Below, one piece after another: positions 22,816-41,767 of a stretch of 41,767 nt of DNA. This DNA is from Richelia sp. SL_2_1 (GTDB lineage: Bacteria; Cyanobacteriota; Cyanobacteriia; Cyanobacteriales; Nostocaceae). The stretch's first letter is position 1, and the number at the start of each line of letters is the position of its first letter. The stretch spans positions 1 to 41,767 of the forward strand of contig JAAUSO010000047.1 of assembly GCA_012033205.1 (NCBI GenBank). The letters run 5' to 3'. Both the position numbers and the translations under genes were made by a program. The notes under the pieces were generated by a model. That model ran no database searches. It saw nothing but the letters and a program-made list of their open reading frames with translations, and had not been told where the DNA came from.

Positions 22816-22849
22816 GCGATACACCTTTGGTGTCGGCGAAGCCTATCGC
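22816..22849. repeat. palindromic repeat inserted in the transposase remnant
   Basis: A 34-bp unit, GCGATACACCTTTGGTGT then CGGCGAAGCCTATCGC, has outer arms GCGAT/ATCGC, inner hairpin ACACC/GGTGT and a GGC/GCC hairpin. Nearly the same unit lies in the initiator gene at 37996-38032. Removing it joins NFL to QRQGSKL of the transposase. Confidence 0.85.
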
Positions 22850-23072
22850 AAAAAATTTAAGAAGTTAATTGTATTATCTGAATTTCCTTTTTCTGCCGGG
22901 TAAATTAAGAATTCTTTTGTTTTATAATCTAATCCTCCAAAGTAAGTTTGGCGTTCTCTTTCATTTACTATTGGGATTGAAACTCGCTCTTTCTTCTTTC
23001 CCCAAACGTACCCTTCACTATCTCCCCACAACAAATGGCATTCATCAACCATAAATACAGCTAGCTCTCCAG

Positions 23073-26800: not shown

Positions 26801-26801
26801 A

Positions 26802-26834
26802 AATCAATTATCAATTATCAATTATCAATTATCA
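26802..26834. repeat. heptanucleotide array (ATCAATT)
   Basis: Tandem ATCAATT units directly before the coaBC start. Confidence 0.9.
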
Positions 26835-26939
26835 GTTTCTTATCGCGACGGTTTTCGCGAACACAAGCCGTAGGTTAAAAACACACTTGATTCAATAACT
26901 TAAAAACCTTATTGAACAAGGATTTGAAATGGTACCCCT

Positions 26940-26976
26940 TGATAACTGATAACTGATAACTGATAACTGATAACTG
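26940..26976. repeat. heptanucleotide array (TGATAAC)
   Basis: Tandem TGATAAC units directly after the stop of the small gene at 26979-27191. The same unit recurs at about 27452-27472. Confidence 0.9.
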
Positions 26977-26978
26977 TA

Positions 26979-27191
26979 TTATGCTTCGTCGTAGGGTTCC
27001 AAATCCAAAAGGTAGATATAAGATTCTACTAATTCGGGACGTTGAAACGCGATAGCTCGCAGTAAATGCCAATCATTCAAACCTTCAAAAGCATTACTGT
27101 AGTTATCTTGCTCCAATCTAGTAGCCAAGTTATCCACTTGCTCTGGAGTCATGGTGGCAATATCGGTTTTAGAAATGGTCAAAGTCTTCAT
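26979..27191 (-). CDS. DUF2555-like small cyanobacterial protein
   Basis: 70 residues, acidic, no signal or membrane segment. The segment DNYSNAFEGLNDWHLLRAIAF and the ending YIYLLDLEPYDEA match, as I recall it, a conserved cyanobacterial family (DUF2555) often found near coaBC. Function unknown. A strong ribosome-binding site (GGGAGGGG, about 9 bp before ATG 27191) supports it as real. Same strand as coaBC. Confidence 0.85.
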   Translation of the reverse strand: MKTLTISKTDIATMTPEQVDNLATRLEQDNYSNAFEGLNDWHLLRAIAFQRPELVESYIYLLDLEPYDEA

Positions 27192-27365
27192 TTTTCAGCC
27201 CCTCCCGTAAGTAGCAACACCATCCAGCCTGGGTTTAACTGTGTTTGACGCAGCCGCCCAACCTATAATACTCATTAGTAGACGCAAATTATGTGAATTT
27301 TCTTCCGGAAATTTACCGTACTTTGTAAAGCTTTTATAACCTTAATTAAATCAGTGAACAGTAAA

Positions 27366-27443
27366 GAGTAGGTACTTTCTTATGGTGAAAGACTTAGAGT
27401 CGCCCTCTTAGATGCCTACCACCTTCTTAGTGTGGTGTTTCGC
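27366..27443. other. candidate structured RNA or leader between the esterase and DUF2555-like genes
   Basis: Plus-strand reading: GTAGG (27369) pairs with CCTAC (27415), enclosing hairpins CTTTC/GAAAG (27375-27391) and AGAG/CTCT (about 27395-27408). ACCAC/GTGGT (about 27419-27438) follows. The sequence CGCCCTC occurs twice (27401 and 27441). No reading frame explains it. On the minus strand it would lie in the leader of the DUF2555-like gene. Orientation and function unknown. Confidence 0.4.
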
Positions 27444-27472
27444 CCTCGTATTTAACTGATAACTGATAACTG

Positions 27473-28108
27473 TTAAGTAAGGTTGCTGATAACGAAAGTA
27501 CGTGCGACATCCAGCATTTGAGAACTAATTTGGTGTTCTCCATCAAATTCATGATATTCCAAGGGAACTGCCCTTAATTCTAATGCATCCCGTGTTTTTT
27601 GAGCAGCTTGTAAAGGTACAACTCGATCTTGTTTCCCGTGCATGATTAACACTGGGGGTAGAGAATTTGTAGCCGGAGTTGCAATATTTTGGATATCTGA
27701 ATGTAAATACCCACTCATGGAAATTAATCCGGCTATTGGCAATTTTAATCCTACATCTAAAGTCATTGCTCCTCCCTGAGAAAAACCACTTAAAATTGTT
27801 CGTTTCAAGGGTATCCCAGTACTCTTCTCTAAAGATTGCAGGTAATCGATTAGCAATTTGCGACTTTCTTCTAACCCTTCATACATATTATTTCTGCTCA
27901 AGTCGTACCATGCTCTACCAATAGGAGAATCAGGATGAGGAAAGGGTGCATTAGGGAATACAAAATGATATTCGGGTAACTGTAAAAAAGGTACTATCGA
28001 TGCTACGTCTTCAGCATTAGCACCCCAGCCGTGTAAAATTACAATTAATCCTTTTGCTGTTTCCCCGATTTTTGGCGGTAGGTCGATCGATTCTAAAGCA
28101 TTAGCCAT
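27473..28108 (-). CDS. alpha/beta hydrolase, carboxylesterase/phospholipase family
   Basis: Serine esterase of the small carboxylesterase family. The catalytic triad is complete: nucleophile in LSGFSQGGAMTLD, Asp in VLIMHGKQDRVVP and His in FDGEHQIS. The oxyanion segment is VILHGWGANAEDV. No signal peptide, so cytosolic; substrate unknown. I start at ATG 28108 (211 residues); a GTG one codon earlier is possible. Confidence 0.92.
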   Translation of the reverse strand: MANALESIDLPPKIGETAKGLIVILHGWGANAEDVASIVPFLQLPEYHFVFPNAPFPHPDSPIGRAWYDLSRNNMYEGLEESRKLLIDYLQSLEKSTGIPLKRTILSGFSQGGAMTLDVGLKLPIAGLISMSGYLHSDIQNIATPATNSLPPVLIMHGKQDRVVPLQAAQKTRDALELRAVPLEYHEFDGEHQISSQMLDVARTFVISNLT

Positions 28109-28197
28109 CACTGATCAATTAATCAATCTGTAGTGGGTCTACAGTAGTCTATAGCAAAAAATGGGATACACCCATACAAATTATTATGTAGTGAGGA

Positions 28198-28262
28198 AGA
28201 AGTCGGGTTTTTATGACTCTTATGAGTGTATTACGGATATTTATCGTCAAAACCCGACTTCT
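28198..28262. repeat. inverted repeat AGAAGTCGGGTTTT / AAAACCCGACTTCT
   Basis: Perfect 14-bp arms (28198-28211 and 28249-28262) separated by 37 bp, in the divergent spacer between the esterase and purH. A degenerate relative lies at about 12719-12784, so it is a dispersed element. Confidence 0.8.
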
Positions 28263-28367
28263 GTAATTGGTGAGAAATACTCACGTTAATCTTTATTAAA
28301 TGCCAACTTGGTTCTAAAATATTCTTTTCCAAGCTAATAAATTAAGATTTTAGGAAATTTATCAATT

Positions 28368-29911
28368 ATGGCGCGTCTCGCACTGCTGAGTGTATCTAAT
28401 AAAACAGGTTTAGTAGAATTTGCTCGAAGTCTCCAAGAAGAGTTTAACTTTGAATTTATCAGCAGTGGAGGTACGGCTAAAGTTTTACAAAATGCCGGAT
28501 TAACTGTTACTAAAGTTGCTGATTATACAGGTTCCCCGGAAATTTTGGGTGGACGGGTGAAGACTTTACATCCGCGAATTCATGGCGGTATTTTAGCACG
28601 ACGAGATAATTCTCAAGATATTACGGATTTGCAAGATAACCAAATTCGTCCGATTGATTTGGTGGTTGTAAATCTTTACCCTTTTACAGAAACTATTGCT
28701 CAGGAGGGTGTTACTTTACCCGAAGCTATCGAACAAATCGATATCGGTGGTCCGGCAATGTTAAGAGCATCTGCAAAGAATTTTACCTATCTTACAGTAT
28801 TATGCGACCCGCTACAGTATACAGAATATTTACAGCAGTTACGTCAAAATCACGGCGAAGTTTCTTTACAATTTCGTCAACAGGCTGCTTTAAAAGGATT
28901 TTTACATACTTCTGAATACGACCAAGCCATTTCATCTTATTTAAGCATCAAGTTTCTCAGCATCAAGAAACTAAGCAGCAATTTAGCATTTCTGGAACAC
29001 AAGTACAATCACTACGATACGGAGAAAATCCCCATCAAAACGCTGCTTGGTATTATACAGGAGCTACTCGGAGCGGATGGGCTGCTGCAACTATATTACA
29101 GGGAAAGGAACTCAGTTATAACAATTTAGTTGATTTAGAAGCTGCTAGACGCATCATTACAGAGTTTTCTGATACTCCCGCAGCAGTAATCCTCAAACAT
29201 ACTAATCCTTGCGGTGTAGCTTTGGGAAATACTCTGGTAGAAGCTTATCAAAAAGCTTTTAATGCTGATTCAATTTCTGCTTTTGGCGGAATTGTCGCTT
29301 TAAATCAACCAATTGACGCAGCGACAGCAACCGAATTAACAAAAACATTTTTAGAATGTGTAGTTGCACCAGGTTGTCAAAACGATGCTCAACAAATTAT
29401 TGCTGCTAAATCCAAACTGCGGGTATTAATACTCCCCGATTTACAAACTGGAGCCAAAGAAACTATTAAAGTTATTGCAGGTGGTTTTCTTGTGCAAGCA
29501 GCCGATGATATTTTAACCGAGACTAATAAATGGCAAATAGTCACCGAAAAACAGCCCAATCAAAAAGAAATTGCAGAATTACTTTTTGCATGGAAAGTTT
29601 GTAAACACGTTAAATCAAATGCTATTGTTGTGAGTTGCGATCGCACTACTTTGGGAGTGGGTGCAGGGCAAATGAACCGAGTTGGCTCTGTGAAAATAGC
29701 CCTTGAACAAGCCGGAGAAAAAGCAACAGGAGGATTTCTTGCTAGTGACGGATTCTTTCCTTTCGATGATTCAGTTAGAACCGCTGCTGCTGCCGGAATT
29801 AAAGGAATTATTCAACCGGGAGGAAGTTTACGAGACCAAGATTCCATTCAAGCTGCTAACGAACTAGGCTTAACAATGGTGTTTACTGGCAACAGACATT
29901 TTTTACATTGA
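28368..29911 (+). CDS. purH: bifunctional AICAR transformylase / IMP cyclohydrolase, frameshifted as read
   Basis: Last two steps of IMP synthesis. The N-terminal cyclohydrolase domain is intact (LLSVSNKTGLVEFARSL, GGRVKTLHPRIHGGILARR, VVVNLYPF, IDIGGPAMLRASAKN). The transformylase domain is also intact but in another frame: SLRYGENPHQNAAWYYTGA, ILKHTNPCGVALGN, SAFGGIVAL and LASDGFFPFDDSV. The break is at about 28938-28945. Adding one T to TATTTAAG gives SYFKHQVSQHQETKQQFSIS and one 514-residue protein, normal in length. As read, the first frame ends at 29129. PurH is normally essential for purine synthesis, so sequencing or assembly error is the likeliest cause. ATG at 28368. Confidence 0.92.
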
Positions 29912-29986
29912 GAAGATTATACCATAAAAATTGATGATTTTTGCAAATTGTTGTCTAAAATGCTTTTCATTTCAACAAACTAGTGC

Positions 29987-29992
29987 TAATCT
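29987..29992 (+). promoter_or_regulatory. extended -10 of the first Yfr2-like RNA
   Basis: TGC-TAATCT (TG at 29984-29985) lies about 7 bp before the conserved GTGTGTGAGGAG start. The second copy has TGC-TAAAGT at the same distance. Confidence 0.5.
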
Positions 29993-29998
29993 ATATTT

Positions 29999-30072
29999 GT
30001 GTGTGTGAGGAGCAAAGTGAAAAGCGTTTGGGGTGGAAACACGGCAACACTCCCAAGCGCTTTTTGCTTTTT
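29999..30072 (+). ncRNA. Yfr2-family-like small RNA, copy 1
   Basis: Small RNA gene seen from structure. It has a 5' single-stranded tract GTGTGTGAGGAGCAAAGTG, then a 13-bp stem (AAAGCGTTTGGGG, 30020s, with CTCCCAAGCGCTTT, 30050-30064) around the loop TGGAAACACGGCAACA, then T-rich DNA as a terminator. The GGAAACA loop and stem style match the Yfr2/Cyano-1 family as I remember it. A second copy lies 167 bp downstream with stem changes that keep pairing. The 5' tract contains GTGTGAGGAG, complementary to the unpaired core of Yfr1 (CTCCTCACAC). It follows purH on the same strand. Confidence 0.7.
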
Positions 30073-30153
30073 AATTTTATTAGTCATTTGAGCAAGATAA
30101 GTCCAATTTTCAAACTGTCACCCAACATACTTGTATATTCATAGATGTAATGC

Positions 30154-30159
30154 TAAAGT
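30154..30159 (+). promoter_or_regulatory. extended -10 of the second Yfr2-like RNA
   Basis: TGC-TAAAGT (TG at 30151-30152) is at the same distance from the RNA start as in copy 1, so each copy seems to have its own promoter. Confidence 0.45.
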
Positions 30160-30165
30160 ATGGTT

Positions 30166-30244
30166 GTGTGTGAGGAGCAAGTGATAAACGAAAAGCGTTT
30201 GGGGTGGAAACACGGCAACACTCCCGAACGCTTTTTGTTTTTTC
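30166..30244 (+). ncRNA. Yfr2-family-like small RNA, copy 2
   Basis: Same layout as copy 1: GTGTGTGAGGAGCAAGTG, a few extra bases (ATAAACG), a 14-bp stem AAAAGCGTTTGGGG with CTCCCGAACGCTTTT, the identical loop TGGAAACACGGCAACA, then a T-run to about 30243. Compared with copy 1 the stem swaps U-G and U-A pairs without losing pairing, which supports a selected RNA structure. Confidence 0.7.
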
Positions 30245-30321
30245 AATATTCAGCAACCAGTTATCGACTATCAATCAATATTTATAATTACCGTCGCCAT
30301 AATTCCCCATCTCCAACTTCT

Positions 30322-30657
30322 TCAATCTTCATCCAAAGCGGGGAAAGCTTCGTCAATAAGCCATAATCGATCTTTATTTTCAACAAACCAAATCCGAGTT
30401 TCGGGAGTTAGTTTGTCCCAAATATACTCAATAGGTATGTGAGGAGAGGAATATTGAAACTCCTCACCGAGTAATCGGAGGTTGGAAGCAATCGCATCGG
30501 GAATACCAAAATCGTTCCAATCGATTTCTCTTTCAATTCCACTAATTCCTTTGCTGGGATCAAAAACCAATTGTGCAGTTCTAATCAAGTCCGCAAAGTG
30601 TACTGGCTTTAATCTATAAAGTTCTTCAATTCGTAGTGCTTCGTTATTTTGAGACAT
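30322..30657 (-). CDS. conserved hypothetical protein, 111 residues
   Basis: Acidic soluble protein without signal peptide or membrane segment. Visible features: RIEELYRLKPVHFADLIRTA near the N-terminus and the Trp-rich end YIWDKLTPETRIWFVENKD, then LWLIDEAFPALDED. I do not recognise a domain. ATG at 30657. Composition and start look like a real gene, convergent with the Yfr2-like RNAs. Confidence 0.7.
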   Translation of the reverse strand: MSQNNEALRIEELYRLKPVHFADLIRTAQLVFDPSKGISGIEREIDWNDFGIPDAIASNLRLLGEEFQYSSPHIPIEYIWDKLTPETRIWFVENKDRLWLIDEAFPALDED

Positions 30658-30872
30658 GAAGACTCTTAGCAGTGAATGTTTACCATTGATAGAACTTACT
30701 GCCAGAGATTTTCCCTAATTTAAGACCTAATCTAATATTACTATTTTAACCTAGAACAGCGATTTTTAATAAAGGGAATAGGGTTGGGGGGAATAGGGAA
30801 TAATAACTAATCATCTTAGCTTGGTATAGTATAACGTCCGGTTAAACACTTGTAATAAAGTTGGTTCGGGAA

Positions 30873-30950
30873 CAATTACCCATTACCAATTACCAATTAC
30901 CAATTACCAATTACCCATTACCAATCAACAACTGATAATTGATAATTGAT
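30873..30950. repeat. heptanucleotide arrays (TTACCAA, then GATAATT)
   Basis: The ACCAATT-type array of the left edge recurs here, followed by TGATAATT units, ending at the stop of the TPR gene. Confidence 0.9.
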
Positions 30951-32165
30951 TTAATTTCTTCCGGATATTTTTTCAATTTGCTGTGTAAACGGATTAGTTT
31001 CAGAACCTAATTGCTGGGCTAATTCTAATCCTTTTTGAAAAGCTGCGATCGCTAATTGATTTTCTTGACGTTGGAGATGAATTTTACCTATTTGTTCGTA
31101 AGCATTCATCATGCCGTAAAAATTAGCAGCTCGCTGTTCTGCTTGTAATAAAATCTGAGTAGTTTGTAAAGCATCTTCTGTTTGACCGTTGGCAATATAT
31201 AATGCAATTAATTTTTGCAAAGCTTCGGCAGCACGTACATATTGCTGCAATTCCCAAGCCATAGTATAGGCTTCTTGATAATTTTTAAAAGCTGCATCTA
31301 GTTGAACGGGATTTTCCTTTGCTAAAGCTTCATAATTTGAAGCCATCGCTAATTTTAATGCTGCTAACTCTGTAAATTTATTTTGTTGACGGTAAACTAA
31401 TGATAACTTTTGACGTGCATTTATAGCTTTTTGATGCTGTTTTGTGCGGTCATAAATGTAAGCTAAATCCTTTAAAGATTTTTCAATATCGTTAATATTA
31501 GAAACTTGATTTAGTAATTGTTCATAAGTTGTTGCAGCGGCTGGATAATCAAACCAATCCAGATGAATTTTAGCAATAGTTTTCAGCGTATCTACCTCCT
31601 TGACAATATCCGAACTTTCTCGGACAATAATCAAAACTTGGTTGTAAACTTGCACTGCTAAAGATGGCGATCGCACTTGAAGATAAGCGTCACCCAAAGC
31701 CTGTAATATCTGTAAATTAGTTGTTTGCTGAGATTGCTTTTGAATTGCTTGTAATCGCTGGGTAATATATCTGATTTGTTGGCGATCGTTTTTGGTGTAA
31801 GCAAATCCACCAACTCTTGAAAGTGCTTGAATTTCTGCTAATGTACCCAAATAACGACGCAATCGTAATTCTCGGTTCCAAGTCGCAAATGCTCCTTCGG
31901 TATCACCTGCTTGCAATTTTGCGGTTGCTTCTCGATCAAGTTGATCCAAAGCTTCTGATAAAAAACGCAGTTCTTGATCATTTAAGGGCTTTTGCTTAAC
32001 TGAAGTTGGTAATAATGGGTCGGGTACGGTAATCTCTAAGGGAGAAGGTGGAAACTTTTTCGGTGGTCTGGGATTTTTTTCTTTGGCTAATGTTAAGGAA
32101 GTCGAAAGCAAACAAATTGTCAGAGTTGTAGTAACGGTAATACTGAAGCGTTGGATATTAATCAT
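30951..32165 (-). CDS. secreted TPR-repeat protein
   Basis: 404 residues with an N-terminal signal peptide (FSITVTTTLTICLLSTSLTLAKE) and a Pro-rich mature start (PRPPKKFPPSPLEITVPDP). The rest is helical TPR repeats, for example ALGDAYLQVRSPSLAVQVYNQ, AYIYDRTKQHQKAINARQKL and QIGKIHLQRQENQLAIAAFQ. Likely periplasmic and involved in protein binding; partner unknown. ATG at 32165, bordered on both sides by heptamer arrays. Confidence 0.88.
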   Translation of the reverse strand: MINIQRFSITVTTTLTICLLSTSLTLAKEKNPRPPKKFPPSPLEITVPDPLLPTSVKQKPLNDQELRFLSEALDQLDREATAKLQAGDTEGAFATWNRELRLRRYLGTLAEIQALSRVGGFAYTKNDRQQIRYITQRLQAIQKQSQQTTNLQILQALGDAYLQVRSPSLAVQVYNQVLIIVRESSDIVKEVDTLKTIAKIHLDWFDYPAAATTYEQLLNQVSNINDIEKSLKDLAYIYDRTKQHQKAINARQKLSLVYRQQNKFTELAALKLAMASNYEALAKENPVQLDAAFKNYQEAYTMAWELQQYVRAAEALQKLIALYIANGQTEDALQTTQILLQAEQRAANFYGMMNAYEQIGKIHLQRQENQLAIAAFQKGLELAQQLGSETNPFTQQIEKISGRN

Positions 32166-32167
32166 AA

Positions 32168-32243
32168 AAGGTTTAAGGTCAAAGGTTAAAGGTCAAAGGT
32201 TAAAGGTTAAAGGTTTAAGGTCAAAGGTCAAAGGTTTAAGGTT
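32168..32243. repeat. heptanucleotide array (AAAGGTT/AAAGGTC/TTAAGGT)
   Basis: About ten 7- to 8-bp units lie directly upstream of the TPR gene start. The remainder of the 306-bp spacer to cpcT is AT-rich and must hold both divergent promoters. Confidence 0.9.
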
Positions 32244-32471
32244 ATGGGAAATTAGAATTAACAATGATAAAAATTATTAAATATCAATTAATCATTTGAC
32301 GAATATCTGTTAATATTTTCTCCATTAATATTTTTAATGTATCAAAGGTTAACTAGCATTGTTTTTCTGACTGATTTGTGTTGATTTTATCAAACTCAGT
32401 AAAACAAGCGGGTAGTTTACTTGGTAATATAACGTTATTAAAATTTTATTTCAGTATCCAAAACCTATATA

Positions 32472-33065
32472 ATGACACACCCCACAGATATCCCAACTTT
32501 AGCTCGCTGGATGGCTTCTGATTTTAGTAATCAAGAACAAGCTTTTGAAAATCCTCCTTTTTTCGCTCACATTCGAGTATGTATGCGTCCTCTGCCTCTA
32601 GATTTATTATCTGGGGTAAGTTTTTATGTAGAGCAAGCTTACGATTATATGCTCAATGATCCCTATCGGGTTGCAGTTAATAAGTTAGTTGATGCAGGAA
32701 ATCATATCGAAATTGAGAACTATAGAGTTAAAAATGCTGAAAAATTCTATGGTGCATCGCGAAATTTACAACTTCTCCAAACTTTAGAGCCAAATGACTT
32801 GGAAAAACTATCCGGCTGTAACATGATTGTAGAATGGACTGGTCACAGTTTCAAAGGAGCGGTAGAACCAGGTAAAAGCTGTATTGTATTTCGTAAAGGA
32901 AAAAATACTTACCTTGACAGCGAATTTGAAATGGATGCAGAAAAATTTATCAGCAAAGACAGAGGAAGAGATTTAGAAACTGACGAGCATATTTGGGGTT
33001 CAGTCGCAGGTGCGTTTCACTTTGTCCGTTGGCAAAGTTTTGCAGACGAAGTAAAGATTAAATAG
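32472..33065 (+). CDS. cpcT: CpcT/CpeT-type phycobilin lyase
   Basis: Attaches phycobilin chromophore to phycobiliprotein cysteines (in the best-studied case phycocyanin beta Cys-153-type sites). Whole-length family features: LARWMASDFSNQEQAFENP at the start, FFAHIRVCMRPLP, SFYVEQAYDYMLNDPYR, CNMIVEWTGHSFKGAVEPG and DEHIWGSVAGAFHFVRWQSF. 197 residues, the usual length; ATG at 32472. It supports a phycobilisome-bearing host. CpcT and CpeT subtypes cannot be separated with certainty here. Confidence 0.85.
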   Translation: MTHPTDIPTLARWMASDFSNQEQAFENPPFFAHIRVCMRPLPLDLLSGVSFYVEQAYDYMLNDPYRVAVNKLVDAGNHIEIENYRVKNAEKFYGASRNLQLLQTLEPNDLEKLSGCNMIVEWTGHSFKGAVEPGKSCIVFRKGKNTYLDSEFEMDAEKFISKDRGRDLETDEHIWGSVAGAFHFVRWQSFADEVKIK

Positions 33066-33072
33066 TAGTTCA

Positions 33073-33866
33073 TTATCCGTTGGCTGCTAACTCTACAGTG
33101 TGAAAGTAGGGAACTCGTTCAACCGAGCTTTCCCAAGTTCCATTCGGATAAAGTTTCATCAAGCGGAATCCTGGGGGTTTTCTCTCAAGAGCAAGTTTTT
33201 TGCTTCCTGGCTGAAATTGAACGCAAGTTGAGGGTGTTCCCAAATAATCCACACCTCGTCGCTGAGTGTAAAATTCTTGGTGTATATGACCAAATAATAC
33301 TAATCTAACTTGGGGGTATTTGTCCAAAACAGTAAAAAATTCTTCGGAGTTTTGCAATTGGCTTTTATCTAACCAGTGAGAATTTACTTTAAAAGGAGGA
33401 TGATGTATTGCTACTGCAGTTGGTTTATCAACAATTGTACTTAACTGTAAATCCAGCCATTCTAAAGTTTCCTGACGCAAATAACCATGTACTTTACCAG
33501 CGACAGAGGAATCTAATAATACAAAATTCCATCCCCCACGTTCAAAACACTTGCGTCGAGAAACCAGCCCCATATTTAAAATTTCACTCATTGTCGCAAA
33601 TCATCGTGATTTCCTGGTAGCCAATAACTAGGAAGAAATAACGAACTGATCAAATTTTGTAAATTGGAATAAGATTGCGGGGTACCGTCACCCGATAAAT
33701 CCCCCGTCAATAATAATAAATCAAGCTCCTCCCGAAGTTTTTTTAAGCGCTCGATAACTGCATGGAAAGAATCCATCGTTGGGATTCCCAAAAGTTGTTG
33801 CTGTTCCGACGCAAATAGATGCATATCCGTTACTTGACCGATGGTTATCGGATAAACCTGCTTCAT
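33073..33866 (-). CDS. CpdA-like metallophosphoesterase (cyclic-nucleotide phosphodiesterase family), frameshifted as read
   Basis: Calcineurin-like phosphoesterase. The N-terminal frame holds QVTDMHLF, LLTGDLSGDG and PGNHDDLRQ, then a stop at about 33588. The C-terminal frame (33591-33073) holds AVAIHHPPF and VLFGHIHQE, completing the metal site. Adding one A near 33589-33593 gives GNHDDLRTMSEIL and one protein of about 265 residues, the CpdA length. I start at ATG 33866 (MKQVYPITIGQ), which aligns with the family start. A TTG at 33902 is in frame behind AAGGAG but too close to it. Convergent with cpcT. Confidence 0.85.
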
Positions 33867-34437
33867 CTTTGATGATACCAATCTAAGAGTCTTAATATCC
33901 AATTCTCCTTGTTAGTCATAACTTACTTGTGTGATAGTAGCTAATGTTTTTTTAGCAACATACTTATACAGCCAAGCTTCTTTTTTGTGAGGTAATGTAT
34001 ATTTACTTATTTGTGATTTTTTTTAAGTAATAACCGAGATTAAGTTTTAACATATTATACTAATTTGGCTTTTTTGAATGTTTTTCATCTATCCTAAGAC
34101 ATAGAAAAATATTTTTGATGTTTTACAGTACTTATGCCTTAAGAAGTATAAATACTGCTTTTACGAATAAAAATATGTATTCTACATAACCGAAAATCCT
34201 AGCATAGATGTAGGTTAATGCAAGTCTGGACGGATAACTTAAAACATGGTAATGATTTTGGTTTAAGGTTAAAGGTAAAAGGTTGTAAGTTCCTACTCCC
34301 TATGTAAACGAAATGTTTAATTAAATGTTGTCAGCAGTATTTAAATACAACCGTAAATAAAAGTCCTTAATAAAATAATCTACGGCGGAGGGTAGATTTT
34401 TAGATAAAATATTGGTAAGATAATAAACGGTAGATAT
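33867..34437. other. AT-rich intergenic region before tRNA-Cys
   Basis: No gene visible. A short AAAGGTT-type tract lies at about 34262-34284. TAAGATAAT at about 34417 could be the -10 region of the tRNA. Nothing else recognised. Confidence 0.5.
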
Positions 34438-34509
<72 letters not shown>

Positions 34510-34616
34510 TTATTAATATTCCGTTATTTCCCCCTCCACAAGCGCCTTCTAGCTTACAGGAGTGGATTCTTCCTTTGTACCATTTTAGGTCAAATTGGGT
34601 AGAATCAACCCACGAT

Positions 34617-34650
34617 TTTAGTCACAAATTTAGTCACAGTTTTAGCTACC
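34617..34650. other. candidate integrase/Xis arm sites next to the tRNA
   Basis: TTTAGTCACA occurs at 34617-34626 and 34629-34638 (12-bp spacing), then TTTTAGCTACC. This lies between the tRNA and the integrase gene, where attachment-site arm repeats are expected. No second copy of the tRNA 3' end is visible in the window. Confidence 0.35.
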
Positions 34651-34761
34651 ATTTAAAAGTTGAGGAAAACTACTCAACGGAGTATTGCGCGTTTGTCCGT
34701 TTGGAATTGGGTGACATCTTCTATAAGAAACATTCCCTTAAAATGTTTGGGGTAAATTTTT

Positions 34762-35900
34762 ATGGATATTGATAATCGTCTTGCTCAAGCAATGGTAGAT
34801 TACGGGCTTCCAATACTGGCATCAGCATTGAGAAGCGTGGGGGAAGTTTATGGCTAAGAGGAACGCTTCCGCCAAAGCCGAATTTGGGTAAAACTAAACC
34901 CTACCAACAGAAACTTTCTTTGAGAACAAAAGAAAATCCTCAAGGAGTTAAAGCCACGATTGCAGGATTGCAGTATGCCGAACAACAAGCCCGAGCAATT
35001 CGGGTACAACTTGATAGAGGTCAGTTTGATTGGGCAGAGTGGCAATTAAGTCAACTACCCAAACCTGAAACCGTATCGGATTGGGTAGAAAAGTTTGAAA
35101 CCGAATATTGGAGAAGGCGATCGCGCAACCAGCAAACCGAAACAACCTGGAAGAAAGATTATCAAGTTGTTTTTCCCAAGTTCGCCGAATTTGCTGACGA
35201 TGCAGAACTTTCTATTGACTTAATAATAGAATTTGCAAGCTTTAGCGAACCCGATACCCGCAGTCGTAAAAGAGTGTGCGACATTTTAGGTAGACTTGCT
35301 AAATTCGCTAAGCTAGAAAATTTAGATGCAATTAAAGAACTGACTGGTAGTTATTCACCCGGAACTGTATCGCCAAGAAGTTTACCTACTGACGAGCAGA
35401 TAGCTCAATGGCGAGATAAAATTACCAGCCCCGGCTGGCAGTGGATATATGGGATGTGTGCGGCATACGGCTTACGTCCCCATGAAGCATTTCATGTTGA
35501 TATGCTAGATTTTCCCACTGCTAGAGTTAGCGATGAGACTAAAACAGGAGAGCGATTTATTTACCCGCTGTATCCGGAATGGTCACAAAATTGGAATCTC
35601 AAAGAAATTGTCTTACCCAATTTGAAATCAATAGAAGATTCCTCCAATGCAAAACTTGGAACCAAGGTATCGGGATTTTTCTATGATTCCAAAATTCCAT
35701 TCCCTCCATACAATCTACGTCACTGTTATGCACGTAGATGCTTTGAATTTGGATTCACTCCAGATTTTGGAGCAAAATTAATGGGACATTCAGTTACAAC
35801 CCATTGCAAAACCTATCGAGCCTGGATTGATGAAGCAACATATCTAAAAGTGTACGAAACATTAATTCATCGAAGAGGTAGACCACCTGCTCCTTCCTAA
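34762..35900 (+). CDS. tyrosine recombinase/integrase, frameshifted near the N-terminus as read
   Basis: Site-specific integrase. The C-terminal catalytic domain has Arg-I in AAYGLRPHEAFH, box II YNLRHCYARR (Tyr in place of the first His, as in related cyanobacterial integrases), LMGHSVTTH and the nucleophile Tyr in CKTYRAWID. An N-terminal arm and core-binding domain precede it. The frame is open from about 34776, and the N-terminus MDIDNRLAQ starts at ATG 34762 in another frame. Adding one A after 34791 gives MDIDNRLAQANGRLRASNTG, then EKRGGSLWLRGTLPPKPN, the family N-terminus as I recall it. The complete protein would have about 379 residues. As read, a TTG at 34884 gives only 338. Adjacent to tRNA-Cys. 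Confidence 0.85.
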
Positions 35901-35938
35901 CTTAAAATTGTCCGGAGGGAATGTCCCTCCGGAAAAAT

Positions 35939-36181
35939 TCAACGAAAAGCTGCTGGAGTTGTAAATCCGTTCAACACAGCAGTAATATTGATTTTTATAA
36001 GTCGATTCATTGAATCATTGCGTCTTGCATCCACCCAATGTAAACCTTCTTTCCATTGTCCAGAGCTAATTCGGCGAAGAATTGAACTACGGCTAAATCC
36101 TTTTCCTAACCTGTTTGATGCTTCTTGAATTGTCAATAGTTCTGCATCAGGCGGCAGCTTGTACATTGTTCGCTTAGCCAA
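35939..36181 (-). CDS. small helix-turn-helix protein, candidate excisionase
   Basis: 80 residues, basic. The region LLTIQEASNRLGKGFSRSSILRRISSG reads as a MerR/Xis-like winged helix (helix-turn-helix plus recognition helix). HWVDARR and NRLIKINITAVL follow. I start at TTG 36181 because GGAGG lies 8 bp upstream; the frame also has ATG at 36166. It converges with the integrase, 38 bp from its stop, which suits a recombination directionality factor. Function inferred from fold and place only. Confidence 0.65.
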   Translation of the reverse strand: MAKRTMYKLPPDAELLTIQEASNRLGKGFSRSSILRRISSGQWKEGLHWVDARRNDSMNRLIKINITAVLNGFTTPAAFR

Positions 36182-37122
36182 GTTAGTAACCTCCAAATTA
36201 TTGTTGTTTTTCAGCAGGCAATTAATTAATTTTTTTCAAGCTACTCGTAATAGTTTTTATTGCATCCTTTTAGGACTTACCGTAATTAAAACTATTGGGA
36301 TTGGAAACAATTTCAAGCTTGATTATGTCTCGAAACAAGTCAGTTCGGGACAATCAATAAGAAAGCACTTTTTACACAGCAATTCCGAAATTAACCTTTT
36401 TTCTGATTGCAAGCCCCCACTATGCAAATGCAGAAAAAATGTTGTTTATCATACAATCCCGCGCCGAATTAATGCGAACAGTTAGATTTTGAATCAAAAA
36501 AAGCTCTTTGAACTATTTATACATATTTATTTGTATTTTGACAATTTTTTCGCTTAATAAAGAATTACAGGCTAGTATCAAGCTGTATAATAAAAGGTAA
36601 TAATAAAATATTTTGCTACGTAAATACAGAAAAATAGGTATTGCTTCAAATCTGCTCACAATAAGACTTAAGAATAATTATTTCCTAGGTTAAGATAAAA
36701 TCTGTAGTATCTATAAATCACTGGGATAACCGAATACTTAAATTTTGTAAAATTTCAACACAACTTGATTTATTTTTCGACAATCTTCTATCTATCAATA
36801 TCTCAGATACTAAGAAAAATGTAATTAATAAAAAATATTCACACTTGTAAAAGAATATTTATTGACTCAGAATGTTCTATTTTCTACGTATCCATTTTTT
36901 GTAGGCTAGTTTACATCTACAAGTGAACCAATTATCAAATAACAGTTTAATCAAGTATAATTAATATTTTATTGCGTAATTATATAGATTCGTTAAATAA
37001 ATATTTGTATAAAAAATTTTTTCTCGAATACAAAAAATAATTATTCAAATGACTAATAGGAAAACAATTATCACTTTAGGTAGATTCGTTTTCTGTTTTA
37101 TTTAGGCATCATTTTTTTATAG
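36182..37122. other. AT-rich region of the putative integrative element, no gene supported
   Basis: About 940 bp, very AT-rich especially from 36490. Open frames here have poor coding character. No tandem repeat array, iteron or RNA gene is clear. It could contain promoters for the replication module. Confidence 0.5.
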
Positions 37123-37362
37123 GTGTTTGCGGTTACAATAAAACCATTAGAAAATTTATTGGTGGATTTTAATACCCGGACAGATTTAAACTGTGCAGGT
37201 ATCTACCAGGAAATAATCAGTTCCCTATTAACTCACGCTTGGAGCAATACGGTTATGAGTGAAAAATTTAGCGTAGCTGCAATTCGTATTTTAATAATGC
37301 AGCAAGGTTTGCGCTTAGTGGAACGATTATTTAACTTGAAAATGCGTAAGATGACATCATAA
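37123..37362 (+). CDS. hypothetical small protein
   Basis: 79 residues from a GTG at 37123; alternatively 36 residues from ATG 37255 (MSEKFSVAAIRIL). The C-terminal half IRILIMQQGLRLVERLFNLK looks like an amphipathic helix. I recognise no family. It lies alone upstream of the replication genes on the same strand. Might be a spurious frame. Confidence 0.4.
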   Translation: MFAVTIKPLENLLVDFNTRTDLNCAGIYQEIISSLLTHAWSNTVMSEKFSVAAIRILIMQQGLRLVERLFNLKMRKMTS

Positions 37363-37827
37363 AAAAATATCTACGCATCCCTAAATAACTAGACTCGAAT
37401 TGAAAGACGGCAATTCACTTTCAATTTTCGTTCTTCTTAACTGTTCAATACATTTGCACTACCATAGTTCAAGACAGGCACTGTTCTTAAACGGTGAACT
37501 CTGTAATACAAATTCGAGAAGCTACTTTTGCTTGCCCCACACTGTTTGCCTATTTATCTGCAAGCCCTTATCAGGATTTCTTCAATTCTGTTATTGCTAG
37601 CAGATAGTACTTTCATGCGCCAATCCATTTCTTCTAGACGAATCTTCAAGCAAAAAGTATCTTGAAATTATTTTGGCATACAGGCAGTAAGCTAAAAAAT
37701 TCTCCTGCTTCTAAGTCGAGTTTACCCCTGCGAAACCGACTTAGAGGACTTTTGTATTCCTAAGATAAAAAGCACCAAACTAATAGACCATTAGTTTTGC
37801 TTGAATGTTTCAGGCGTTCTAAAAATT
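37363..37827. other. leader region of the replication module
   Basis: No gene supported; the open frame at 37400-37600 has a composition unlike a protein. A strong hairpin lies at 37710-37745, and the start region of the initiator follows. Confidence 0.5.
37710..37745. promoter_or_regulatory. strong hairpin upstream of the initiator gene
   Basis: TCTAAGTCG (37710-37718) and GTTT (37720-37723) pair with AAAC (37733-37736) and CGACTTAGA (37737-37745), a 13-bp stem with one bulged A and loop ACCCCTGCG. It could be a terminator (T-rich ACTTTTGT follows), an attenuator or a binding site. Confidence 0.5.
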
Positions 37828-38727
37828 ATGATCAAAAACAATTGCTACGTCAAACACGAGTATGACTCTATCGAACACAAACAAAAAATACCTCTTTTTT
37901 ATCGTCTAACTCATGGTGAATGGGTCGAAACTGTGAAAAACTTGACTGGAGCCGAAATTAAGGTGCTGTATTACTTACGTTCGCTAGATCCATTTGGCGA
38001 TAGGCGAAGCCGACACCGAAAGGTGTATCGCCATCTCGAATACAGTATTACGGAAATGGCGCAAGAGCTAAATATTTCCAAAGGAGCAGCGTCAAAAGCG
38101 GTTAAAAAGCTAGACCAGATTAGTTTAATTGATGCACAAATATTAAAAGTAAAAATCAAAATAACAACTGACCAATACAAAGAGACTGAGTTTCCTATAG
38201 GAAACAACGTTTCTTATAAGCAATCTGAGTTTCCTATAAACAACCCGAATTTCGTAGAGGAAACCGAGGTTTCTTATAGGAAACCGCAATTTCCTATAGG
38301 AAACGAACGGCAGTTAAAACCATTGCCAGATGGTGGTTTGAGAACCCCTCAGACTATTAAGACTTATTCAGACTTTATTAAGACTCTCTCAGAAGAGGAG
38401 CGAGCGAAGTTTTTGAATTTTTGTGAAGAAAAAACGAAGAATCTTAGTCAGGAAGTAATTGATTTAGAAGCATGGTTAGCAAGTAAGACTAAAACCGGAG
38501 AAAATCGCTGGGAAGTTCATTACCGCTTTTATCAAGCTTCACTGAAAACCAGAAATCAAGAAGAACAGCAACGTATACAAGCAAGAGAGCAAGTAGAGAA
38601 ATGGAAGCGGGAACTAGAAGAACAAACTGAAGCAGGAATTTCTGCTTGTAAAGACTCGTTGATACTAGAAAAAGATTGCCAATTAGATGAAAAATTGAAT
38701 CTTCATCTTAAGAACGGACATAAATAA
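37828..38727 (+). CDS. winged-helix replication initiator, phage-O-like layout
   Basis: 299 residues from ATG 37828; a TTG at 37801 is in frame. The N-terminal domain (about 25-120) resembles phage replisome-organiser winged helices: PLFYRLTHGEWVETVKNLTG, AEIKVLYYLRSLDPFGDR, then SITEMAQELNISKGAASKAV and KKLDQISLI. A short stretch RRSRHRKVYRHL in this domain comes from an inserted palindromic repeat (37996-38032). The middle (about 120-165) is encoded by iterons and is low in complexity (EFPIGNN, EFPINNP, QFPIGNE). The C-terminal part is charged and coiled (NQEEQQRIQAREQVEKWKRE). One base separates its stop from the dnaB start, so the two are coupled. Inferred role: bind the internal iterons and load the helicase. 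Confidence 0.75.
   Translation: MIKNNCYVKHEYDSIEHKQKIPLFYRLTHGEWVETVKNLTGAEIKVLYYLRSLDPFGDRRSRHRKVYRHLEYSITEMAQELNISKGAASKAVKKLDQISLIDAQILKVKIKITTDQYKETEFPIGNNVSYKQSEFPINNPNFVEETEVSYRKPQFPIGNERQLKPLPDGGLRTPQTIKTYSDFIKTLSEEERAKFLNFCEEKTKNLSQEVIDLEAWLASKTKTGENRWEVHYRFYQASLKTRNQEEQQRIQAREQVEKWKRELEEQTEAGISACKDSLILEKDCQLDEKLNLHLKNGHK
37996..38032. repeat. palindromic repeat inserted in frame in the initiator gene
   Basis: Arms GGCGATA and TATCGCC enclose a GGC-GAA-GCC hairpin and an ACACC-GAAA-GGTGT hairpin. It is nearly the same as the unit in the IS630 remnant at 22816-22849, which is in the other orientation. It is translated as part of the protein. Confidence 0.85.
38190..38304. repeat. six palindromic iterons inside the initiator gene (candidate origin)
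   Basis: 16-bp units start at 38190, 38209, 38229, 38249, 38269 and 38289, a spacing of 19, 20, 20, 20 and 20 bp. The first is the perfect palindrome GTTTCCTATAGGAAAC; the others are GTTTCTTATAAGCAAT, GTTTCCTATAAACAAC, ATTTCGTAGAGGAAAC, GTTTCTTATAGGAAAC and ATTTCCTATAGGAAAC. The units fall in all three codon frames, so the DNA and not the protein is conserved. Confidence 0.88.
38346..38385. other. helically phased AT-rich repeats, candidate unwinding element
   Basis: TATTAAGACT (38355-38364), TATTCAGACT (38365-38374) and TATTAAGACT (38376-38385) follow the iterons by about 50 bp at 10-11 bp spacing, with a partial CTCAGACT before them. They lie inside the initiator gene and are not frame-preserving. 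Confidence 0.5.
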
Positions 38728-38728
38728 A

Positions 38729-40069
38729 ATGATTGATCAAATACCTCCTGCAAATATAGAAGCCGAAGAAGCTATTCTGGGTGGAATACTTCTTGACCCC
38801 CAAGCCCTTGTCAGAGTACGTTCTAGCTTAACTCCAGAAGCTTTTTATATCAAAGCTCACTGCCATATTTATAATGCTGCACTGCAACTCGACAATCAAG
38901 GTAAACCAACAGATTTACTAACGATTATCAGCTGGCTCAATGACCATGATTCACTTTCTCGTGTGGGTGGTAGGAATAAATTAGCATCACTTGTAGAGCG
39001 TACAGTATCATCTGTAAACGTTGATTTTCTTGCCGATTTAGTAATGGAAAAGTATAGAAGACGGCAGCTGATAAGAGCAGGTAACGAAATCGTTCAACTT
39101 GGCTATCAGACAGAAGTTGACCTACCACAGATACTAGATAATTCCGAACAAAAAATTTTTCAAATTTCCAATCAAAGACTTTGCTCGAATATCGAACATA
39201 ACAGTACAATTGCTCTTGCTGCTTATAAAGAAATAGAAGAAGTCAATCCCATCTATTCAACAGGATTTAGTCAATTGGATGAATTGATAGTCGGATTTGA
39301 ACCAGGTACGCTGACTTTAGTTGCAGGTAGACCATCAATGGGTAAAAGTGCCATCTCTTTATGTCTTGCACTCCAGATGATATTAAGGCATTCTCTTCCT
39401 GTAATATTTTTTTCTTTAGAGATGACTAAGCAGCAATTGGAGTACCGCTTATGGAGTTTAATCAGTATTGCTGCTGACTATAAAAAATGTGACCTGATTC
39501 CGATACAAAGCGATCGCATCCGCAGACACCGGGCTTTTATGGAAGGCTTGGCTGATTGGGAATTCAGCAATATAACTAAAATTGTGAATATTGCCTCAAC
39601 TCTGCCACTCTACATTAGCGATCGCAGAGGAATTACTGTTTCTGATATTGCTCATGAATGTCGTCAAATTAAAACTAAGAAAGGAAAAATTGGTTTAGTC
39701 GTAATTGATTACCTACAGATGATGGCGGAAGATTCAAGTGCTAATCGCAGTTATGAATTAGGGGGAGTTGCAAAGGGACTTTACAAAATGGCAGGTGATT
39801 TAGAAGTTCCCGTATTAGCACTTTCCCAAATTAATCGAGCTGTCGAAAGTAGAACAGTTAAACGTCCAATAATGAGCGACCTTAGCCAATCCGGAATATT
39901 AGAGATGGTTGCCGACAATATTATCCTTGCTTATAGAGACGAATACTATAACCCGAATACTTCAGATCAAAAAATCTTAGAACTGATTGTGGCTAAAGCA
40001 AGACATGGCGAAACTGGTACAGCCACTGTGTTGTTTGATAAATCTTATGGGGCGATCGCGTCTCTGTAG
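38729..40069 (+). CDS. dnaB: replicative DNA helicase, DnaB family (element-encoded)
   Basis: 446 residues. The N-terminal DnaB domain (IPPANIEAEEAILGGILLDP, residues 5-24) and linker (about 105-155) precede a RecA-like helicase. Walker A is GRPSMGKS (200-207). FFSLEMTKQQLEYRL follows, then Walker B VVIDYLQMM, LALSQINRAVESR and an arginine-finger region KRPIMSDLSQSGILEMVADN. The usual SDLRESG is here SDLSQSG, so the Arg of that motif is lost; this is worth noting, but the rest is intact. It starts one base after the initiator stop. Its place beside an initiator and a ParB-like gene suggests a helicase dedicated to the element, not the host copy. Two HIP1 sites lie inside and one at the stop. 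Confidence 0.93.
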   Translation: MIDQIPPANIEAEEAILGGILLDPQALVRVRSSLTPEAFYIKAHCHIYNAALQLDNQGKPTDLLTIISWLNDHDSLSRVGGRNKLASLVERTVSSVNVDFLADLVMEKYRRRQLIRAGNEIVQLGYQTEVDLPQILDNSEQKIFQISNQRLCSNIEHNSTIALAAYKEIEEVNPIYSTGFSQLDELIVGFEPGTLTLVAGRPSMGKSAISLCLALQMILRHSLPVIFFSLEMTKQQLEYRLWSLISIAADYKKCDLIPIQSDRIRRHRAFMEGLADWEFSNITKIVNIASTLPLYISDRRGITVSDIAHECRQIKTKKGKIGLVVIDYLQMMAEDSSANRSYELGGVAKGLYKMAGDLEVPVLALSQINRAVESRTVKRPIMSDLSQSGILEMVADNIILAYRDEYYNPNTSDQKILELIVAKARHGETGTATVLFDKSYGAIASL

Positions 40070-40134
40070 CAGTGGAATATTTAGATATTTTTCATTTGGT
40101 AAATGCATAAATACAACTTGCGATCGCAATAGTT

Positions 40135-41277
40135 ATGAGTATAAATTCAGCTTCAACAGTTTGTGACGAACAAAAGAAGACGCAAAATGAAGAAAGGGTA
40201 ACACCATTGATAAAATCTTCATTTAACTCAGGACTTCAGATTGACTCTGAATTTCAAAACTTAATTCCTCCACTATCTCAAGAAGAGAAGTTACAGTTGG
40301 AAGCAAATTTAAAAGAATTTGGCTGTATTGACCCTTTGGTAATTTGGAAAGATAAGTCTATTATTTTGGATGGACATAACCGCTATGAAATATGTAACAG
40401 AAATCAAATTCCATACAAAATTGTGGAAATTGATATGGTGTCGAGAGATGCAGCTATCTGCTGGATTGTTAACAATCAATTGGGACGACGTAATACTACA
40501 CCAGAAGTGGCAAGTTACCTTAGAGGTAAGCGCTATCTGCATTTGAGGGGTAATCGTGAGGATAATCTCAAACAGAATTCACCGAAGTGCAACTTTTGCA
40601 CTTCGACAGAAGAATCAGAAGACAGTATCTCGATAGATAAAGCCAAGGCTTTAGCTGCTGAATATAAAGTTAGCCCCAGAACAATTAAAAACGATGCGAA
40701 ATTAAGCCAAGCATTAGACACTTTAGCCTCGGCGTTAGGAGAAAAAGTTAAGCATTCGATTTTGGCTCGTAACCCCAAAATGACTAAAGAAGAGATTTTA
40801 TCCCTAGCTCAAGTAGTGCATACTCAAGGAAGTACTTTGGCTAAACAGATATTTAATAATAAACGAGGAAACACAAGTATTGTTCAACAAATTAAGGATA
40901 AGCAGCGCGTTGCTAATCCAAGAATTGTTGGTGAAGTTTGCCAAATTATTTCCAAAGGCGACCCAGATTTAAAACAATATTCTCGATGTTGGTGCATAAT
41001 AAATGCGGTGAATCTTCATAGTTGTGCTATCGGAATGTGGAAAATGGACTTCCCAACAGTCAAGCCCGAAAACTTGGAACCAATATATACAGTATCTGAA
41101 GAAATTGCTGCTCAAAATTGTCAACGTATTCGGCAATTGGCAAATATAGTTTGCAAAGACGGTGAACCTACTCATATAGCTGTACTTGAGGCGCTTTCAA
41201 GGATATATGACCCAGCTAGTCTTACACCTAAACAGGAGCGAATACTCTCCTTTTTAGAAAGCGAATACGATTTATGA
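40135..41277 (+). CDS. ParB-like nuclease/CTPase-fold domain protein
   Basis: 380 residues. A ParB N-terminal domain (about 42-130) contains LIPPLSQEEKLQLEANLKEF, GCIDPLVIWKDKSIILDGHN, RYEICNRNQIPYKI and then NQLGRRNTTPEVASYLRGKRY. A helix-turn-helix-like part follows (about 165-195, LAAEYKVSPRTIKNDAKLSQ). The C-terminal 150 residues are not recognised. No ParA gene is in the window. It may act in partition of the excised element or in gene control. ATG at 40135, 65 bp after dnaB, with a HIP1 site between them. Confidence 0.85.
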   Translation: MSINSASTVCDEQKKTQNEERVTPLIKSSFNSGLQIDSEFQNLIPPLSQEEKLQLEANLKEFGCIDPLVIWKDKSIILDGHNRYEICNRNQIPYKIVEIDMVSRDAAICWIVNNQLGRRNTTPEVASYLRGKRYLHLRGNREDNLKQNSPKCNFCTSTEESEDSISIDKAKALAAEYKVSPRTIKNDAKLSQALDTLASALGEKVKHSILARNPKMTKEEILSLAQVVHTQGSTLAKQIFNNKRGNTSIVQQIKDKQRVANPRIVGEVCQIISKGDPDLKQYSRCWCIINAVNLHSCAIGMWKMDFPTVKPENLEPIYTVSEEIAAQNCQRIRQLANIVCKDGEPTHIAVLEALSRIYDPASLTPKQERILSFLESEYDL

Positions 41278-41767
41278 AACAATTTACGTGAATGGGTAGT
41301 TACAGAAAAATATTTATTTTTGTAGCCTAACACTAATAAGTTTTGGGCTATTTTTTAATTATTTTTTTTAAATTTAACACTTTAAATACGTAATTAAATA
41401 GTTTATATATCACTAGACATAGAAACTAAGCTATGTATTACACGCAGACAATTAGTATTTATTTAACTAACGACTTATGTAAGTTTACGTTAAGTATGAA
41501 TGAATTATTAATGATTTGATACACATACCAGCCTAACTTAATGTATTTACACATAAATATAATATCTGATCGACGTAATAATTATTTTTTATTTAATAAT
41601 ATTTAAACGTAGAAAAATGCGATTTTAATTTACCCCAATCGGCTGATTAATAAAGATGCAGAAACAAGTTATCAAAGATATAGAAAATGATTGGGTTTAA
41701 ATTTTCATGTCCTTGAGAACATCCCGCATTTATTCGATGCCCGCAAAACGTTATCCCCCATCAAATC
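41278..41767. other. AT-rich region at the right edge, no gene supported
   Basis: 490 bp of AT-rich DNA with short frames only. I see no repeat of the tRNA-Cys 3' end (which would mark the element end), no array and no RNA gene. The element probably continues to the right. Confidence 0.5.

Follow-up and report, generated by a model that had tools for sequence, protein, structure and literature searches.

Can the middle of a replication initiator gene be the origin at which its own product acts? This question is raised by a locus of the cyanobacterium Richelia sp. SL_2_1. The window, which is the whole stretch of 41,767 nucleotides analysed here, represents a whole contig of a 7.55-Mb genome. 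The initial annotation had proposed a lambda-like origin, made of six palindromic iterons in the middle of an initiator-like gene. Comparison of the gene with its relatives suggests that it is very probably the replication initiator of a cyanobacterial plasmid-type replicon, with the origin in its middle and with a reader domain and iterons that can be swapped. The features of the locus are as follows.

34438-34509, forward strand: tRNA-Cys(GCA) gene (ARAGORN, Rfam), the integration target, with the att core at 34464-34509
34884-35900, forward strand: integrase at the left end of the element, of the tyrosine-recombinase type by eye (phrog_1, E 5.9e-12)
35939-36196, reverse strand: small ORF, HTH-like from its translation
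37828-38727, forward strand: replication initiator (family comparison; weak match to phrog_8102, 'replication initiation protein', E 0.0092)
37900-38151, forward strand: N-terminal winged-helix domain (AlphaFold2, residues 25-108, pLDDT block means 59-92)
38000-38026, forward strand: 27-bp in-frame insertion (9 residues) in the winged-helix domain (alignment)
38190-38304, forward strand: six iterons, 16-bp inverted repeats, within the part that encodes the predicted disordered linker
about 38347-38421, forward strand: shared DNA element, a candidate unwinding or loading element and junction (codon freezing, alignment)
38365-38727, forward strand: C-terminal helical domain, type A, usually with dnaB next (AlphaFold2, C-type clustering)
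38729-40069, forward strand: full-length DnaB replicative helicase (TIGR00665, 433 bits against a cut-off of 385; Pfam)
40135-41277, forward strand: ParB-like protein (phrog_498, DNA methyltransferase, E 9.3e-6; phrog_620, ParB-like, E 1.6e-4)

The presence of six iterons inside the initiator gene was confirmed. The units occupy 38190-38205, 38209-38224, 38229-38244, 38249-38264, 38269-38284, and 38289-38304, with spacings of 19, 20, 20, 20, and 20 bp. TRF found a single array at 38189-38304 (period 20, 5.8 copies). The number, length, and spacing of the units were thus described correctly in the initial annotation, but near-perfect palindromy is limited to three of them (8/8, 7/8, and 7/8 half-site matches); the degenerate units 2, 3, and 4 match by eye at 6, 5, and 5 of 8 positions. 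When up to three mismatches are allowed, the perfect unit is matched six times in the 41,767-base window: five times in the array, where unit 2 falls short, and once outside it. In 100 shuffles, the mean was 0.20 matches, and no shuffle had more than 2.

The units start in codon frames 2, 0, 2, 1, 0, and 2 relative to the ORF, so all three frames are used. The gene contains 78 repeat words; in 100 synonymous-codon shuffles, which leave the protein unchanged, the mean was 13.2 and the highest count 38. In its central part there are six 16-mers with at least 6/8 palindromy (mean 3.0), a count attained in 6 of 2000 synonymous shuffles. A looser count, of sites within five mismatches of the consensus, gave six in the window and showed no separation from 2000 synonymous shuffles (mean 3.9, maximum 7). 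The excess of repeats over synonymous shuffles and the use of three frames bear out the earlier claim that selection acts on the DNA. Conservation of the units between the window and the orthologue in genome G390 appears modest: 86 of 96 unit bases are identical, and 13 of 19 spacer bases, while the N part has 251/290, the C part 326/399, and bases 38340-38400 have 55/61. Units 2 and 3 clearly differ from those of G390 (11/16 and 12/16 identical).

The array lies in mid-gene, between the winged-helix domain and the C-terminal domain, as had been stated. The initiator likely starts at the ATG at 37828, not at the TTG at 37801 of the ORF listing. In the AlphaFold2 model (pTM 0.32), the linker is predicted to be disordered, with pLDDT <50 at residues 116-174, and the C-domain is helical, with block means of 77-92 past residue 180. 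The Pfam search of the window protein gave weak MarR/HTH matches, all below the curated cut-offs. Structure search of the initiator gave generic winged-helix matches only, none with E <0.001 in either library, and for the helical C-domain no convincing relative among solved structures. Weak fold matches were 4pql (E 0.25) and 4pt7 (E 0.59), which we take to be RepA_N N-domains, and a model named GpO N-terminal (E 7e-3). The 27-bp insertion is missing from the aligned genes of G390, G392, and Calothrix 336/3. By eye, it looks like a short sequence near 22818-22850 of the window.

Homologues were collected at a profile E-value of 1e-5. From 164 ORFs, 136 were full-length, and merging of 26 with identical cores left 110 distinct genes; the window gene stands in this set as the identical copy L001, and the G390 orthologue is outside it. 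In 98 of the 110, the repeats were above all 100 synonymous-codon shuffles (p 0.0099, the floor of the test), and in 97 of those 98 more than 80% of the repeat words sit between the N-terminal domain and the C-terminal block. The test was not passed by L030, L047, L050, L076, L078, L083, L085, L090, L094, L107, L108, and L122 (12/110). Applied to the adjoining dnaB genes as a control (58 with a downstream dnaB, 57 of them of sufficient length), the same test was positive in 0/57. The expectation that homologues would keep the iterons while the encoded residues vary was therefore largely realised: the repeats stay in place, and both sequence and residues vary, in 97 of the 110, but the 12 genes above fail. 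TRF arrays were found in 99 genes. A period of 20 is the most frequent (40 genes), followed by 21 (12), 60 (12), 42 (9), 40 (7), 19 (5), and 18 (4), with ten others of 38-90; those other than 20 are mostly near-multiples of two helical turns. A 12-mer occurring three times is missing in 20 of the 110 genes.

The sequence of the repeats follows the N-terminal domain. Covariation was analysed in the 90 genes with clear repeat words, giving 4005 pairs, which are not independent events because the genes share history. The correlation of iteron similarity is far stronger with the identity of the N-domain (r 0.70, partial 0.685, Mantel p 0.001) than with that of the C-domain (r 0.20, partial 0.042, p 0.021). 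The 163 pairs with N-identity of at least 0.6 and C-identity below 0.45 share their iterons (mean 10.75 of 12); the 202 pairs with N-identity below 0.4 and C-identity of at least 0.6 do not (8.04, against a background of 8.26 at N <0.3). Single-linkage clustering at 60% gave 26 N-types, and each of the four largest occurs with both C-types. In 13 of the 14 N-domain clusters that contain at least two genes, iterons are more alike within the cluster than outside it; the exception is the two-gene cluster of L124 (7.59 versus 8.25 outside). The window iteron is present without mismatch in L006, L091, and L100, although the C-domains of L091 and L100 have only 15-20% identity to that of the window. 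Since the repeats track the N-domain and not the C-domain, the N-domain and the iterons move as one cassette onto different C-domains. Most of the 26 clusters probably represent separate reader/iteron specificities.

A second DNA element is located just 3' of the iterons. In the window it has AGACT at 38351, 38360, 38370, and 38381, then CTCTCTCAGA, then a purine-rich tail. Codons at shared residues were compared in 3633 of 5995 pairs (25-70% protein identity), with the expectations taken from columns outside 93-190. Codon identity was 0.894 in columns 161-176, where 0.418 was expected (2.1-fold). The corresponding values were 0.380 (0.404 expected) in the N-domain, 0.505 (0.426) in linker columns 93-160, 0.616 (0.462) in columns 177-200, and 0.514 (0.443) in columns 201-230. 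By a like method, the highest 16-codon window of 53 dnaB genes reached 1.48-fold. In the 110 genes, the element has 2.58 copies of AGACT per 66 bp; synonymous shuffling lowers this value to 0.44, and the rest of the gene has 0.041. Its spacing is 9, 10, or 11 bp in 154 of 181 cases, and 71 genes have it in two codon frames. At least two copies are present in 93 of the 110 and CTCTCTCAGA in 87; some members are without the element. With an AT content of 0.664 versus 0.567, the element is more AT-rich than the gene in 110/110, and its stacking is weaker. In the window alone, the most AT-rich stretch of 38100-38480 is at about 38120-38180, upstream of the iterons and not at the element.

The element was also searched for as a pattern with up to three mismatches, a setting that misses most family members. 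In 388 genomes of the class it was found at six places in five genomes, all inside rep genes of the family; the reversed control pattern had no match in the same 388 genomes. A blastn search with the element returned 39 plasmid records, the weakest rows of which (E of at least 0.2, six of them in response-regulator genes) are probably chance. The single phage match (E 0.06) was also taken as chance.

Nucleotide identity switches at columns 163-186, the AGACT element, in both directions: in 347 pairs that are alike in the N-domain and unlike in the C-domain, and in 227 pairs for which the reverse is true. The element thus appears, from these alignments, to be the junction at which cassettes are exchanged. 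Before the initiator, L193, L195, and L197 each carry a truncated N-domain that belongs to another type, as would be expected if a new cassette is inserted in front of an old one. These truncated domains lie directly upstream of the complete initiators, at 2115-2411, 2093-2293, and 2278-2508, respectively, and are possibly stumps of replaced cassettes. Both the exchange of cassettes and the second, better conserved DNA element were missing from the lambda-like plan first suggested.

The next gene, after a one-base gap at 38728, is a full dnaB, in agreement with the initial annotation. Two C-type clusters include 103 of the 110 genes, 100 of which have at least 700 bases downstream. Of the 59 genes with a C-domain of type A, 51 are followed by dnaB, as are 6 of the 41 with type B (Fisher p 2.7e-13, a nominal value, since the sequences are related by ancestry). 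As dnaB stands mostly beside type A, the distribution suggests that the C-domain would decide which helicase is used.

These features may be combined in one mechanism. The N-terminal winged-helix domain would bind the iterons encoded by its own linker, as the covariation indicates. Iteron binding would set the C-terminal domain beside the AGACT element, which may open or take the helicase; its position, composition, and codon freezing point to this role. The C-terminal domain would deliver DnaB, which is co-encoded in type A and probably supplied by the host in type B, as the genome context suggests. Since the reader domain and its sites are adjacent and end in sequence common to most members, recombination at the shared element could swap the replication specificity in one step. 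While the swapping of cassettes can be followed in the alignments, a change of incompatibility group is its presumed consequence. We infer binding, origin opening, helicase delivery, replication, and incompatibility from the comparison of sequences. On balance, we lean towards regarding the family as a previously undescribed class of origins with a swappable cassette, in which reader and iterons are joined at the AGACT element to interchangeable helicase-recruiting domains, one event may change the specificity, and stumps may be left upstream.

Other explanations of the repeats were considered. That the repetition belongs to the protein, as a repetitive linker whose DNA similarity is a by-product, would fit the repetitive peptides encoded by the repeats in many members, and also the loose consensus count of the window, which does not beat synonymous shuffles. 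It is hardly credible in view of the 98 genes that exceed all such shuffles, and the window units are inverted repeats in three frames within a linker predicted to be disordered. The repeats might also be operators, through which a winged-helix protein controls its own expression or the copy number, while the origin lies elsewhere. The weak MarR-like matches of the winged-helix domain and the MarR annotation of some plasmid records (3/27) are in line with this, as is the GC skew, which gives no support for an origin at the element: in seven circular family plasmids the mean relative distance from the skew minimum to the element was 0.22, against 0.25 by chance (p 0.29), and the skew was rejected as an independent pointer to the origin. 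However, the strong repeats of the window are all inside the gene and none is at the promoter, the 20-bp phasing and the adjoining codon-frozen, AT-rich element suit an origin better, and dnaB follows most type A genes. Control by operators alone is therefore considered very improbable.

The function of the AGACT element allows more doubt. It might be a recombination site or hotspot that is kept uniform by exchange, rather than a site of opening or loading, and the fact that N-alike and C-alike pairs both switch there speaks for this. On the other hand, AGACT at 9-11 bp persists in different frames and in diverged proteins, the element is AT-rich throughout the family, and a role in each replicon explains its fixed place after the iterons. 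The exchange itself may be plain homologous recombination in the best conserved DNA. A pure recombination site thus seems unlikely, though less so than the operators. An element that takes part in replication remains the preferred reading, and it offers a concrete candidate for the site that is opened or loaded with helicase.

The window copy belongs to an element that has integrated into the chromosome at a tRNA-Cys gene. The left part of the window is chromosomal, containing coaBC, purH, and cpeT, and 26000-34765 is collinear with contig C59 of G306, a genome of the same genus, in five main pieces of 91-95% identity and one weaker piece (71%); G306 has about 9.6 kb of extra DNA. The possibility that the contig is a plasmid was rejected for these genes and this collinearity. 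It is also opposed by the presence of coaBC in six and cpeT in six other genomes of the genus, and of cpeT together with tRNA-Cys on an 8.7-Mb contig of G390. In the window as assembled, purH (28368-29911) is split into two frames, and a short tandem repeat (28942-28981) lies close to the break. A gene like cyclic-AMP phosphodiesterase (33073-33902, reverse strand) is represented by two ORFs with a 4-bp overlap.

The 46-bp att core extends from the anticodon loop to the end of the tRNA and was found in 6 of the 7 genus genomes searched. Two copies are present in G000, G389, G390, and G392; those of G390 are 198 kb apart on the 8.7-Mb contig, and the 5.5 kb around its second core contain neither a tRNA gene nor a further match to window 33000-41767. 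In the genome of the window, the second core is on another contig, and the right end of the element is outside the window. A duplicated att core, together with an integrase gene adjacent to that of the tRNA, marks an integrative element, in support of the location first proposed. The integrase has no Pfam integrase match, and the ORF at 35939-36196 is, by eye, presumably excisionase-like. The ParB-like protein matched no Pfam family. In 34000-41767, the tRNA was the only RNA family at gathering score. At the right contig end, window 41401-41767 shares 96% identity with G306:C71 and with the beginning of contig C234, and its last part, 41641-41767, is the same as the end of contig C178. The assembly was probably interrupted here by a repeat.

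The state of the module differs among related genomes. In G390, the orthologous rep-dnaB-parB module begins some 7 kb from cpeT, and the order is that of the window. In G392, the orthologous initiator has its frame interrupted inside the iteron array; G306 retains just a piece of dnaB behind the tRNA, its initiator having been lost to a remnant. These two states suggest that the gene is dispensable while integrated, and they fit an integrated element in which the replication genes are decaying in certain lineages. The replicon of the window would then be one carried by such an element. Four more family loci are present in the genome of the window, two of them fragmentary or broken (C284, C115). 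At L161 7144-8702 (C284), a second att core and part of the integrase gene pass directly into DNA that resembles the last part of rep and the beginning of dnaB; judged by its sequence, this locus is a decayed second element.

The family is not restricted to integrative elements. The arrangement does occur on one, as supposed at first, but it is not special to them, being also found on cyanobacterial plasmids and on chromosome-size contigs. By tblastn, relatives were detected in 27 of 72,556 plasmid records, all 27 cyanobacterial, and 13 of 16 fetched family plasmid records are marked circular. A scan of 84,980 species (one genome each) with a single peptide pattern gave 40 loci, all cyanobacterial by their titles. 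In the order of the window, 92 of 388 genomes match at E 1e-10. A phage origin of the family was rejected, since none of 50,697 phage records matched the initiator protein and the scan of viral contigs gave a single relative (L062). In the plasmid records covered, the initiators have only names of the kind helix-turn-helix protein, MarR family regulator, or hypothetical protein. No description of the family was found in the titles and abstract starts of open-licence PMC literature among the matches listed.

The likeness to lambda that had been proposed holds for the plan, since the window has inverted-repeat iterons in the middle of an initiator gene, but not for descent as judged by Pfam. Neither lambda O nor RepA_N was among the Pfam families matched by the window protein (E up to 1) or among the 25 of 70 Pfam families listed for 35 members; membership of either family was rejected. 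The partner also differs. Lambda P is a helicase loader, whereas the partner in the present family is the DnaB helicase itself, mostly with one C-type. A nearer arrangement than that of lambda is found in phage P22, in which gene 18 is accompanied by the DnaB-type gene 12. According to the portion of PMC7466680 consulted, lambda and Stx phages have their origin in the middle of the initiator gene, where four or six iterons, each an imperfect inverted repeat of about 19 bp, adjoin an AT-rich region; the partner replication gene is nearby.

The staphylococcal RepA_N plasmid pSK41 provides a second parallel. In the part of PMC5703833 that was available, its origin is described as central in rep and bound by the winged-helix N-domain, with the linker encoded by the origin; the Rep C-domain has a host-specific role and binds DnaG primase. 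The chimeric plasmid pPR9 differs from pSK41 over about 500 bp (N-domain and origin) in an otherwise similar backbone, and its new N-domain is pfam13730 (HTH_36) (PMC5703833, same part). As far as that part goes, the N-domain and origin were replaced as a unit there, as in the cyanobacterial family. HTH_36 was matched by 14 of 35 members (E up to 0.1, best 1e-7) among the matches listed, and was absent among those listed for the window protein. Unlike pSK41, the cyanobacterial family has a codon-frozen AGACT element and, in type A, an adjacent dnaB, and its relatives were found in cyanobacteria only in the plasmid, phage, and species searches. The best reading of these comparisons is that the family may work like the lambda origin in O and like pSK41 RepA_N, yet forms a separate initiator family.

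Other cyanobacterial plasmid replication proteins are CyRepA and CyRepX, initiators with similarity to helicases (DEXDc/HELICc) in the part of PMC10899382 consulted; its main text does not contain the words iteron, helix-turn-helix, DnaB, repeat, winged, or pAQ5. Repeats in AT-rich elements mark other plasmid origins, as described in the sections seen of PMC10797057.

The replication mechanism thereby proposed would apply to a group of plasmids in cyanobacteria, among them pAQ5 of the model strain PCC 7002. The 26 N-domain clusters might be a resource for compatible vectors. A suggested reason for keeping the origin inside its own initiator gene is that the reader and its target stay together when the specificity is exchanged. 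Among the family loci, a gene for a cytosine-specific DNA methylase lies within about 2.5 kb downstream of the initiator in L193, L194, L195, L205, and L208. In the Picosynechococcus plasmids of L205 (4280-4450) and L208 (23159-23329), a 171-bp hypothetical gene has the PLSDB label ACT-82 beta-lactamase; as the gene is far too short for a beta-lactamase, the label is probably wrong.
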